Source: Gluconacetobacter tumulicola (GTDB taxonomy: Bacteria > Pseudomonadota > Alphaproteobacteria > Acetobacterales > Acetobacteraceae). From it: a stretch of 64,000 nucleotides of DNA. The number at the start of each line of letters is the position of its first letter. Position 1 is the first letter of the stretch. The position numbers were made by a program, and so were the translations under genes. The stretch spans positions 124,001 to 188,000 of the forward strand of contig NZ_JABEQL010000003.1 of the NCBI RefSeq assembly GCF_014174215.1, in the 5' to 3' direction. This document shows, one piece after another, positions 9,601 to 49,564 of this stretch. A model generated the notes under the pieces. The model did not search any database and was not told where the DNA came from. It saw only the letters and a list, made by a program, of their open reading frames with translations.

Positions 9601-9769
9601 CTCAGAGCCTGACTGGAAAATGCGGGCTGGCGAGCGAGAGCGGCCCGCAGGGCCGCGCCCGGCGTGTGTTGCCGAGCATCGGAGCGGAGTGGCCTTGATG
9701 GCCATGAGCACCGAAGCGCAGGCAACGCGCGTTGGATCGCCGCCAGCGCGTATTTTCGGTCAGGCTCTC
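9601..9769 (-). repeat. Palindromic repeat element, copy A (scpB-tatB intergenic)
   Basis: Read on the minus strand, this segment shares a core with 41390-41497 and 49428-49536, including the string GGCCATCAAGGCC and CCGATGCTCGG. The core is bounded by imperfect inverted arms of about 29 bp (9604-9632 and 9741-9769) whose sequence, containing AGAGCCTGAC and GAAAAT, differs completely from the arms at the other two loci yet still pairs with itself. An internal hairpin GCGGCCC-TGC-GGGCCGC is present. The element ends 14 bp before tatB. See findings. Confidence 0.85.
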
Positions 9770-9858
9770 AGACTTGGACATTAAAACGGACCCAGACATG
9801 GCATGACGCGAACCGCGCGCCGGCACGCACCGACATGCGCGGAAAGGATGGACACCTA

Positions 9859-41246: not shown

Positions 41247-41361
41247 CGGCAGATCCCCTTGCTTGAACGGCTTACGGATGAATCCGCCGCTAACAATGCG
41301 GGAAAGTCAGCGACATATGGACAGGGGACCTTGGTGCCTCCTCCCCACCCCCACGTCAACA

Positions 41362-42027
41362 GTTTCTGCCCGGAAACGGGGTTCTGGTGGCGATCCGACG
41401 CGCGTTTCCTGTGCGCCGGTGCTCACGGCCATCAAGGCCGCTCCGCTCCGGTGCTCGGAAACACACGACGGCCGTGCCGCTGCGCGGCACTCTCGCTCAC
41501 CAGAACCCCGTTTCCGGGCAGAAACCCGTGCGCCCCTTGGAAGACATTTGCGTCGGCGATCCGACGCACGTTTCCTGTGCGCCGGTGCTCACGGCCATCA
41601 AGGCCGCTCCGCTCCGATGCTCGGAAACACACGACGGCCGTGCCGCTGCGCGGCACTCTCGTTCACCAGAACCCCGTTTCCGGGCAGAAACCCATGCGCC
41701 CCTTGGAAGACATTTGCGTCGGCGATCCGACGCGCGTTTCCTGTGCGCCGGTGCTCACGGCCATCAAGGCCGCTCCGCTCCGATGCTCGGAAACACACGC
41801 CGGGCGCGGCCCGTTCCGGACCGCTCTCGCTCACCAGCACACCTTTCCGGGCAGAAACCCGTGCGCCCCTTGGAAAACATTTGCATCGGCAATCCGACGC
41901 CGTTTTCTGCGCTTCGCGGCAGACGGCCATCAAGGCCGCTCCGCTTCGATGCTCGGAAACACACGACGGGCGTGCCGCTGCGCGGCACTCTCGCTCACCA
42001 GAACCCCATTTCCGGGCAGAAACCCGT
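41362..42027 (+). repeat. Palindromic repeat element, copy B: tandem array of four 166-bp units
   Basis: The core string ACGGCCATCAAGGCC begins at 41425, 41591, 41757 and 41923, an exact 166-bp period. Unit 1 (41362-41525) is bounded by perfect 28-bp inverted arms (41362-41389 and 41498-41525). Units 2-4 keep the right arm, but a linker with a GCGTCGG/CCGACGC hairpin replaces the left arm. Unit 4 has a diverged left half. Each unit carries a hairpin such as GTGCCG-CTGCG-CGGCAC, which in unit 3 is replaced by GCGGCCCG-TTC-CGGACCGC. The array fills the gap between cydC and the lipoprotein gene. Bases 41247-41361 hold only presumed promoter sequence. Confidence 0.9.
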
Positions 42028-42061
42028 GCGCCCCCTGTTCGATATTAGCGAGCCGCCCGCT

Positions 42062-43759
42062 TCAAACAGCGGCGGCGACTGCCTTTCCGTCCGACAGGCG
42101 CCAGACGCGGTCCAGTTTTTCCACCCCGACCAACCGATGCGCGATCAGGATCACCGTGCGGCCGGCCGTCACGTCATAGAGCGTGGTCAGGAATTCGCGT
42201 TCGGTCTCGGCATCCAGCCCGGTCGCCGGCTCGTCCAGAATCAGGATCGGCGCGTCGGACAGCAGGGTCCGCGCCAGCGCGATCCGCCGCCCCTGGCCAC
42301 CCGAGAGCGACGCCCCGCCCTCGCCCAGCCAGGCATCCAGCCCCTCGGGCAGCGCGCGGACCACATCGCCCACCTGGGCACGATCCAGCGCCGTCCACAG
42401 GTCGGCCTCCGTCGCATCGGGCCGACCCAACAACAGATTAGCGCGGATCGTATCGGCAAACAGATGCGTGGCCTGAGACAGCCACGCCATCCGCTGGCGC
42501 ACCGAACCACTCTCCAGCGTCGCCAGCTCCTCGCCCCCCAGCATGATCCGCCCCGATGACGGCGACGCCACCTTCAGCAGCAGCGCCGCGAGCGAGGATT
42601 TGCCAATCCCCGACGGCCCCAGGATCGCAACCCGCGCTCCCTGCCGGATCTCCAGGTTCAATCCGTCGAATACGGCAGCCCGATCCGCCTGCCAGCGGAA
42701 CGAGACCTGCTCGAAGCGGATATCGGTACCGGCCGGGGCCGGCCGCGTACCCACGCTGACCGCCGGCCCGTCGCTCTCACCAACAGCAACCACCCGCGCC
42801 GCCGCACGGCTGATCCCACCGGCCAGCGCCCCGGCCCGCGTCAGGCCACCGGCACTCTCGAACCCCGCGATCACAAGAAACAGCAGCCCCACCCCACGCG
42901 CCGCCGGGATCGACCCCAGCCCGACACCCAGGATCGCGGCCAGCACCGCCAGCACCGCCGCCTGACCGCACAGATAGGACACCCCGCCCATCACCGCCAG
43001 TAACCGCGCCTGCCGCGCCTGCCCCCGCAGCAACGCGGCATCGCGCGCCCGCGCATGCGCCAACATGCGTCCTTCAGCCCCAAAGGCCCGGATCTCGCGC
43101 AGCCCGGTGACCAGATCCAGCACGCCGATCCGCAGATCGGCCAGACGATGCGTCAGGATCGCCGCCTCGCGCCGCCCCATCAGCGCCGCCGCCAGCGGCA
43201 GCACAAAGGCGCCGACCACGAACAACCCGCCAACGATCACCGCCAGCACCGGGTCGACCGGCAGAACCGTCAGCACCAGAAACGGCAGGACCAGACACGC
43301 CCCAGCCAGCGGAACCATGATCCGCAGATACAGCCCGTCCAGCGCCTCGACATCCGACACCAGGCGCGACAGCAGGTCGCCCGCGCGGCGGAAGCCCAGC
43401 CCGGCCGCCGCCCCACCGGCAAGGCGGCGAAAGAACCAGACGCGGATATCGGCCAGCGCCCGGAACATCGCATCATGCGTGACCAGGCGCTCGACATAGC
43501 GCAGCACCACGCGCGCCACACCCGATGCCCGCAGCAGCACCAGCCCCACCACCGCGCCGCCGAAGGCCAGCCCGGCCATGCGCGCGCCGGCCCCACCCAT
43601 CAGCACCAGCCCGGCCAGCAACGCCAGCAGCGACAATACGGCACCCGCAGCCAGTCGCGGCGCGCGGCGCTTCCACAACCCCATAATGCGCAGCACCGGC
43701 GCCAGGCCGTCACGATCCTCGGCCGCCCGGCCGGACAGGGATCTGTCAGACATGGGCAT
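42062..43759 (-). CDS. cydC: Thiol reductant ABC exporter subunit CydC
   Basis: 565 residues. An N-terminal six-helix ABC exporter domain is followed by a nucleotide-binding domain with Walker A ILGPSGIGKSSLAALLL, signature SLSGGQGRRIALARTLL and Walker B ILILDEPATGLDAETE. The protein pairs with CydD to export glutathione/cysteine to the periplasm, needed for cytochrome bd and c-type cytochrome maturation. The start overlaps cydD by 14 bp (or 8 bp if the ATG at 43753 is used). Its stop is 35 bp from the repeat array. Confidence 0.9.
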   Translation of the reverse strand: MPMSDRSLSGRAAEDRDGLAPVLRIMGLWKRRAPRLAAGAVLSLLALLAGLVLMGGAGARMAGLAFGGAVVGLVLLRASGVARVVLRYVERLVTHDAMFRALADIRVWFFRRLAGGAAAGLGFRRAGDLLSRLVSDVEALDGLYLRIMVPLAGACLVLPFLVLTVLPVDPVLAVIVGGLFVVGAFVLPLAAALMGRREAAILTHRLADLRIGVLDLVTGLREIRAFGAEGRMLAHARARDAALLRGQARQARLLAVMGGVSYLCGQAAVLAVLAAILGVGLGSIPAARGVGLLFLVIAGFESAGGLTRAGALAGGISRAAARVVAVGESDGPAVSVGTRPAPAGTDIRFEQVSFRWQADRAAVFDGLNLEIRQGARVAILGPSGIGKSSLAALLLKVASPSSGRIMLGGEELATLESGSVRQRMAWLSQATHLFADTIRANLLLGRPDATEADLWTALDRAQVGDVVRALPEGLDAWLGEGGASLSGGQGRRIALARTLLSDAPILILDEPATGLDAETEREFLTTLYDVTAGRTVILIAHRLVGVEKLDRVWRLSDGKAVAAAV

Positions 43760-48675: not shown

Positions 48676-49413
48676 ATGCCCCTCTCGCGGCGGCAGGATC
48701 TGATCCGGGCCCTTCCCTATGCCAGGCGATATGCCCGTGCCCTGACCGGCAGTCAGCCACGCGGCGATCTCCTGGTGGCCGAAAGCCTGCGGGGCCTGGC
48801 CGTGGCGGAAGCCGGGCCATTGCCGGCACGGCAATGCCTGTACCAGTGGATCTCGCGGCAGTTCAGGCCCGCACCGGCCTCGGAGGCCGAAGCCCTGAAC
48901 ATTCTGGAGCGCAAGCTCCTGCTTCTGACATCGCTGGAAGAACTCACGATCGCCGACGCCGCGCGGGTCCTGGACCTGGGCGAGGCCGAAGCCGCCGAAA
49001 TCCTCGCCCGCGCCCATGCCGGCCTGCGCAAGGTCGCCCAGACCTCCATCCTGATCATCGAGGATGAGCCGATCATCGCGATGGATATCGAGGACCTGGT
49101 CCGCTGGTGCGGCCATCAGGTCGCCGGCGTGGCCGCGACCGAGGCCGACGCGATCGAACTGGCCCGCCAGACCAAGCCGGGCCTGATCCTCGCGGACATC
49201 AATCTGGGCACGGGCGGCGACGGCGCGAACGCCGTGGCCAGCATCCTGCGCCATCACATGGCACCGGTCATCTTCGTCACCGCCTACCCCGAACGCCTGC
49301 TGACGGGCGAGGCCATCGAACCCGCCTTCGTCGTCACCAAACCGTTCGAGCCGATGACCCTCGCCATCGCGACCTACCAGGCAGTCACCGGCGGCCTCCA
49401 AAACCTGCCTTGA
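48676..49413 (+). CDS. phyR: Response regulator / anti-anti-sigma factor PhyR
   Basis: 245 residues. The N-terminal half mimics an ECF sigma factor (LPYARRYARALTGSQPRGDLL, then NILERKLLLLTSLEELTIADAARVL). The C-terminal half is a receiver domain with SILIIEDEPIIAMDIEDLV, ILADINLGTGGDG (phospho-acceptor Asp about residue 174), VIFVTAYPERLL and VTKPFEP. This two-part layout is unique to PhyR, which sequesters NepR on phosphorylation. It diverges from ecfG. The last codons and stop (49400-49413) form part of the left arm of a palindromic repeat. Confidence 0.95.
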   Translation: MPLSRRQDLIRALPYARRYARALTGSQPRGDLLVAESLRGLAVAEAGPLPARQCLYQWISRQFRPAPASEAEALNILERKLLLLTSLEELTIADAARVLDLGEAEAAEILARAHAGLRKVAQTSILIIEDEPIIAMDIEDLVRWCGHQVAGVAATEADAIELARQTKPGLILADINLGTGGDGANAVASILRHHMAPVIFVTAYPERLLTGEAIEPAFVVTKPFEPMTLAIATYQAVTGGLQNLP

Positions 49414-49564
49414 GAGCCGGTCTGGCGGCGGTCCGACGCGCGCTCCCTGCGCGCCGGTGCTCACGGCCATCAAGGCCGCTCCGCGCCGAGGCTCGGGAGA
49501 CGCACGCCGACGGCGGCCCTTTGGGCCGCTCCCGCTCGCCAGACCGGCTCTCAAGGCAGGTTTT
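49400..49564 (+). repeat. Palindromic repeat element, copy C (phyR 3' end)
   Basis: Perfect 28-bp inverted arms occupy 49400-49427 and 49537-49564. The left arm includes the final codons and stop of phyR, so the right arm is an inverted copy of the gene's 3' end. The core between the arms matches the 41.4-42.0 kb array and 9601-9769, including ACGGCCATCAAGGCCGCTCC. Inner hairpins are CGCGC/GCGCG and GCGGCCC-TTT-GGGCCGC. Arms end in AAAA/TTTT, so it could serve as a terminator for phyR. Confidence 0.88.

Follow-up and report, generated by a model that had tools for sequence, protein, structure and literature searches.

The 64,000-nucleotide stretch of the Gluconacetobacter tumulicola genome analyzed here (hereafter, the window) carries copies of a palindromic, non-coding element of ~163 bp at three loci. 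As originally predicted, this element is real, and a covariance model places the copies at all three loci in a family that is found throughout the genus. The sequence GGCCATCAAGGCC occurs in the window six times with 0 mismatches, and all six occurrences are confined to these loci. At one of them, positions 41362 to 42027, one complete and three partial copies are arranged in tandem, all with the minus strand as the best-folding one. The complete copy (41362 to 41525; 178.2 bits, model positions 1 to 164) is followed by copy 2 (41554 to 41665; 109.2 bits, model positions 27 to 138), which consists of the core without a left arm of its own, then by copy 3 (41705 to 41847; 109.8 bits) and by the partial copy 4 (41887 to 41997; 87.8 bits, model positions 27 to 138). 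Beyond the far side of the array lies a minus-strand gene (42062 to 43759), and a piece of this region (42062 to 42900) has matches over almost its full length in 13 of the 14 genomes of the genus, that of G. tumulicola (G000) included. The repeat unit of the array, ~166 bp, includes the right arm and a spacer, and its copy number rises and falls between species (orthologues L168 to L172): there is one copy in the congeners G005, G001, and G010, about two in G003 and G006, and four in G000.

The copy at 49400 to 49564 (minus strand; 156.6 bits), for which orthologous sites were compared, is entered by the 3' end of the plus-strand gene at 48676 to 49413, called from codon usage, and its outer arm holds the stop codon of that gene (49411 to 49413). 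In congeners that lack the element, the end of this gene differs in position by no more than a few codons, and some of them use a different stop codon. The third copy (plus strand; 172.6 bits for 9604 to 9768) is a recent insertion, present in G000 and G003 and absent with clean junctions from G005, G001, G006, G010, and G007. Comparison of the orthologous sites gives CTGGCTCAGACTTGG as the empty form and CTGGCTCA-element-TCAGACTTGG as the occupied one, so that the mobile unit is 9605 to 9767, flanked by a target-site duplication of TCA at 9602 to 9604 and 9768 to 9770 (TGA on the other strand). The inverted arms are perfect, as first reported, at 41362 to 41389 and 41498 to 41525 and at 49400 to 49427 and 49537 to 49564 (0 of 28 mismatches in each pair), and the description of those at the 9601 locus as near-perfect stands if a one-base bulge and three mismatches are allowed for.

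A BLAST search with the core yields 48 matches in the G. tumulicola genome, and a covariance model built from 28 copies yields 110 matches at an E value of 0.01 or better, the weakest of which may be due to chance (150 of 7548 candidates were scored). The table of copies used below has 87 entries: 22 of the 110 matches, mostly short or weak ones, were left out, one of the 88 taken was dropped, and members of tandem arrays were included. With stricter filters, 20 of 60 genomes (G. tumulicola included) have matches, representing 7 of 47 genera and including all 14 genomes of the genus. Matches are thus present in each of the 13 congeneric genomes, some of which hold fewer than G. tumulicola does. 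One of the seven genera, represented by genome G045, belongs to another family and has seven weak matches to the model, with a best E value of 5.8e-9. A pattern scan of named genomes detected 58 stretches in Gluconacetobacter species, Endobacter medicaginis, and an Acidisphaera metagenome-assembled genome. Residence on plasmids or phages was considered and rejected, as the one copy tried against each collection had no match. Identity with an Rfam family was likewise rejected for the absence of any match in Rfam 15, either for the whole window at gathering scores or for 41340 to 42050 at E values up to 1.

The arms had at first been taken to be unrelated between loci. Across the 87 copies, they are mainly versions of a single terminal inverted repeat, approximately GAGCCTGACCGGAAATG, with an arm consensus of about (A)GAGCCTGACCGGAAATGYGSGCTGGYG and sub-types that include GAGGCTGTTTCAAAAGC and GTTTGTGGCCGGAAACG. 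Two of the three copies in the window belong to atypical sub-types, which is why their arms looked unrelated. The consensus-arm pattern, with up to 2 mismatches allowed, has 138 matches in the G. tumulicola genome, compared with 0 for the reversed control, and the ends of the element are of the type GAGCC(T/C)GA...GAAA. At G000:C26:15419-15475, a spacer of 7 bases separates two facing arms; this core-less 57-bp hairpin probably arose through internal deletion.

Orthologous regions were sought by means of markers for 56 of the 87 copies, for 26 of them in five species and for 30 in two, and were fetched where found, with the fifth species (G010) giving only 9; the three sites of the window were traced across the genus. 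In the flank comparison, 38 rows passed the gap filter, of which 12 rows at 7 sites were read as clean empty sites. The remaining rows, which include those at C5:176359, C6:174292, C15:39769, C7:142872, C31:31776, and C4:198952, represent tandem arrays, another copy at the site, remnants, or messy junctions. A 3-bp duplication is seen at all 7 clean sites. The same triplet is present on both sides at five of them (C30:44651; C3:133604, which is the 9601 copy of the window and is empty in five species; C32:34441; C14:42861; and C2:179250), and one base on one side has changed at the other two (C35:11529 and C1:35440, with TGA and CGA flanks). In gene sense, that is, on the complement of the folding strand, an empty xxTGAyy becomes an occupied xxTGA-element-TGAyy at six sites, and at one site the triplet is TCA. 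When identical triplets on both sides are counted without an empty site for reference, they are found in 17 of the 87 copies (mean of 7.4 and maximum of 14 in shuffles). The duplication is invisible in most copies, and several of the junctions compared are messy; both points count against assigning the family to miniature inverted-repeat transposable elements (MITEs). Nevertheless, the copies are short, non-coding, and multicopy and have consensus terminal inverted repeats; the repeat consensus and the 3-bp target duplication together make the element a MITE, where the original prediction had seen something other than an ordinary one. At G000:C4:198952, another element lies at a stop codon ahead of an older one and in the same orientation, with only the older type found in G005 and G001; this seems to be a second insertion.

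We therefore read the family, with a probability of close to 0.9, as a non-autonomous MITE of ~163 bp from the IS1031-type branch of the IS5 family, with about a hundred copies, of which about half have one fixed end at the stop codon of a gene that reads into them. An IS5-family transposase would move the element in trans. For the IS1031 subgroup, a TNA target and a 3-bp repeat are described, as is a member with ends GAACCTGTCTAGTATCT (GAACCTG type) that was found inserted at TGA (PMC12016507). The duplications at the 7 clean sites (TGA in 6, TCA in 1) fit this TNA rule. As far as that description extends, the element shares with the IS1031 subgroup and MITEs derived from it the GAGCCTG- or GAACCTG-type ends, the 3-bp TNA duplication, and the presence of IS5-family transposases in the genus. 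It differs from the subgroup in that its 163-bp body is non-coding and has a conserved fold with a three-way junction, its arms diversify by paired changes, and it shows a bias in orientation and toward stop codons.

The G. tumulicola genome has 7 matches to PF13340 (IS5 type), all of them on contigs other than that of the window. Two IS5-type copies located at contig starts (L204 and L205) have CTGTCTGACCGGAAATGAG at the end, adjoining TCA or TGA; counted from the TNA, 14 of 17 letters are equal to those of the element, for the one end that is visible. Of the seven such loci checked for inverted repeats (L204 to L210), L206, L208, and L209 were rejected as partners, the ends seen there being different from those of the element. 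A closer look at congeners shows a 930-bp IS of the IS5 family in G004 and G012 with ends GAGCCCGATCCGAAAG, whose end type GAGCCCGATCCGAAA resembles that of the element. In the seven copies examined (L430, L435, L439, L422, L431, L436, and L440), TNA is found at 14 of 14 flanks, and the same triplet lies on both sides in five. This IS has 13 and 15 entries among the matches listed for two congeneric genomes, which comprise 2 and 3 contigs. NCBIfam model NF033580 matches its transposases and also those of the G003 relative of the IS from G. tumulicola. An automatic repeat search around further IS copies recovered GAGCC-type ends only for L430 and L422. No autonomous element with exactly matching ends was found in the G. 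tumulicola genome, and inspection by eye of the places listed in that genome revealed no inverted pair of arms 0.6 to 4 kb apart. This, together with the 3 differing letters of 17 in the best IS there, also counts against the MITE assignment.

The position of the element relative to genes was assessed with gene calls from a custom codon-usage finder, which was seeded on codon-position GC and checked by eye on the window only. Of the 85 G. tumulicola copies that have a gene on one fixed side, 68 have this gene directed into the element. The outer end of the element lies within 3 bases of the stop codon of that gene in 45 of the 87 copies (and in 1 on the other side), with the last base of the stop codon being the first base of the arm in 33 of these 45. 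Among 98 distinct copies from other genomes, 81 of 95 are read into, 50 are located at the stop codon, and 1 has the mirror arrangement; orthologous sites recur in the two sets, which are thus not fully independent. In the window, TGA stop codons make up 19.5% of the TGA sites at which genes are spared (43 stops and 177 non-coding sites). Against this background of ~20%, 27 of the 36 G. tumulicola copies with a TCA edge (TGA in gene sense) are at a stop codon (binomial P of about 1e-12). The stop codons used at the copies in other genomes are TGA in 38 cases, TAG in 7, and TAA in 5, compared with 43, 8, and 6, respectively, for the genes of the window. A pure TNA target would not predict this share of TAG and TAA unless stop codons changed after insertion, a point against the MITE assignment; such changes are suggested at C36:26665 and C15:39769.

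Of the 7 fresh insertions, no more than 2 or 3 lie at stop codons, which hints, on these small numbers, that later survival adds to the bias. At orthologous sites in G003 and G005, a full copy has been kept in 52 of 75 cases for stop-codon copies and in 14 of 34 for the others (P = 0.0065, for two species that were pooled and are not independent, with 2 rows of too little sequence left out). The orientation bias, 45:1 in G. tumulicola and 50:1 in the other genomes, is not explained by a plain MITE with like ends; it is the least explained fact in our data and speaks against that assignment. As the outer ~16 bases of the two ends are mostly alike, the bias has to come either from the inner, unlike parts or from selection. 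We infer that the element would insert at TGA in a preferred orientation and that an insertion at a TGA stop codon would leave the protein intact because the TGA is regenerated. Stop-codon copies would then be kept preferentially, with the hairpin being harmless there or useful as an RNA 3' end or transcription boundary.

The folding strand begins with AGCGAGAG (or AGCGGGAG) behind the arm. In its predicted fold, the two arms pair as a long stem, accompanied by a three-way junction and two hairpins, one short and one long with GGCC(UUGAU)GGCC at its tip. Compared with dinucleotide shuffles, the z scores of the fold are -12.6 for the 49400 copy, -13.6 for the complete copy at 41362, and -10.4 for the 9601 copy, the last having a folding energy of -123.7 kcal/mol on the folding strand versus -101.6 kcal/mol on the other. 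In an alignment of 97 distinct copies from other genomes, which was fitted to the covariance model, 96.8% of the stem cells are paired (80.9% in shuffles), 55 of 66 pairs have changed on both sides (34.8 in shuffles), and both sides differ in 888 cells (197 in shuffles). None of 500 shuffles reached these values on paired share, two-sided pairs, or two-sided cells, and the paired share dropped to 32 to 46% once partners were shifted by one, two, or three columns. Among orthologues from sister species (54 comparisons), 147 of 223 differences in the left arm have a mirrored counterpart in the right arm; the figure becomes 119 of 189 when the two comparisons that involve different elements (C4:198952 versus G005 and G001) are removed. 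Of the 61 occupied comparisons, 7 were out of register and do not enter these counts, and comparisons that share a G. tumulicola copy are not independent. Both arms change together, and so pairing is kept, in the inner stems as well as the arms: the long stem is maintained despite sequence change, as had been proposed.

The site C19:20401 has four versions of the arm in six genomes, with the partner arm matching or nearly matching each time. At C15:82555, one arm of the G001 copy is near the G000 type and the other is near the G003 type. The symmetry of the arms might be kept through selection on the hairpin, through arm-to-arm copying in a folded single strand, or through both. In some relatives, short hairpins built from pieces of the element are found at stop codons (L308, L323, L350, and L253) and look as if they were shortened copies made symmetric again. 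On the strand opposite to the gene, G.U pairs outnumber A.C pairs by 52:25 and 170:60 in alignments fitted to that very model, and a bias on the same strand is seen at rarely mispaired positions in the arms of 75 G. tumulicola copies (38:16; P = 0.004). One-sided changes at orthologous sites show it as well, at 39:19 overall and 21:16 outside inherited columns. This wobble bias is mostly inherited and is not used here as a basis for argument.

Several other origins of the element can be weighed against these data. One option raised in the original prediction is that the element duplicates its target flank in inverted orientation, with the arms deriving from the locus. This would account for arms that vary between loci and match within each of them, for the arm-like stretch TGAAACCCGCCTCGAAAGG behind the stop codon at the 49400 site in the element-free G006 and G010, and for the complementarity that extends 8 bases past the arm at C28:25684. 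However, the arms obey a family consensus, which the arm-like stretches also resemble, and these stretches are equally well explained as remnants of deleted copies, which are seen in other cases. The comparison of flanks in sister species revealed, at all 7 clean sites, plain insertion with an ordinary 3-bp duplication into an empty site free of arm sequence; with no arm there beforehand, an inverted copy of the flank is not what happens. The proposal is largely refuted, and we regard it as highly improbable. We give even less credence to a mobile core that inserts within the loop of terminator hairpins already present, with arms of host origin: the arms do differ from site to site and in many copies begin at the stop codon, and some relatives have short hairpins at the same place, but copies share an arm consensus, clean empty sites are devoid of hairpin arms, and the duplication lies at the outer ends of the arms.

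Repetitive extragenic palindromes (REPs) and their composite forms (BIMEs) are abundant extragenic palindromes near gene ends and in this respect are similar to the element. Movement of such an element as single-stranded DNA by a Y1 transposase (RAYT, IS200/IS605) would agree with the orientation-specific placement behind a short target and with the better folding of one strand. The element, unlike REPs and BIMEs associated with RAYT, has long terminal repeats (arms of 28 bases) and a 3-bp duplication at insertion. The reported lack of a RAYT gene in the window holds more widely, as PF01797 has no match in any of the 14 genomes of the genus, compared with 5 of 14 control genomes. This rules out Y1-dependent movement for the present genomes; an ancient enzyme that was later lost may have been involved, and overall this origin appears scarcely credible. 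Other known MITEs, namely, ERIC, RUP, and Correia/NEMIS, are described as being small and non-coding, with terminal repeats, target duplication, and stem-loop transcripts (PMC2229807), all of which makes them similar to the element, and the orientation of ERIC is reported to matter for its effect on upstream transcripts (PMC2229807). Judged by these descriptions rather than by their sequences, the element is set apart by its high GC content, base-exact position at the stop codon, and paired evolution of its terminal repeats.

A more serious competitor is a family of structured RNAs or terminators that serve the 3' ends of genes, with the copies kept for this function and mobility being incidental. 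In favor of such a family are the exact position at stop codons and the constant orientation of the copies in two sets (not fully independent), the strong paired change both at orthologous sites and across the family, and the more frequent sharing of stop-codon copies by several species. On the other hand, about half of the copies are away from stop codons, there is no match in Rfam, and the wobble bias is slight once a few inherited columns are set aside (in gene sense, A.C 21 versus G.U 16 among one-sided changes at orthologous sites). A T tract behind the far arm, TTTT within 12 bases, is present in just 1 of 87 copies, so that by the usual criterion the element does not qualify as an intrinsic terminator, and the strand that folds better is opposite to the mRNA of the gene, which speaks against a simple mRNA hairpin. 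We consider this alternative possible but doubtful. Within the MITE assignment, the stop-codon copies may act as portable 3'-end hairpins. The MITE could then be a transposon-borne 3'-end module that inserts at TGA in a preferred orientation, settles at stop codons, and is kept as a general gene-end hairpin, with terminal repeats that evolve by paired changes after fixation; we put this forward tentatively, as a plausible extension that falls short of even odds.

In conclusion, the element belongs to a MITE family of IS1031 type that is unusual in its association with stop codons and in the way its ends evolve in pairs, and for which no earlier description was found in the literature searched. 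The choice between selection and arm-to-arm copying is a long-standing question for quasi-palindromes, and the series of orthologous arms described here allows a direct test between selection on the hairpin and arm-to-arm copying during replication. A single genus supplies natural insertions that can be counted and aligned, so that a comparison of sister species can tell apart the preference at insertion, the later selection at gene ends, and the paired evolution of the palindrome arms. If the proposed role is true, the element would provide a portable 3' untranslated region to dozens of genes per genome, common to orthologous genes of several species. Should the stop-codon copies affect termination or the stability of mRNA, many genes at once would owe their 3' ends to a mobile element.
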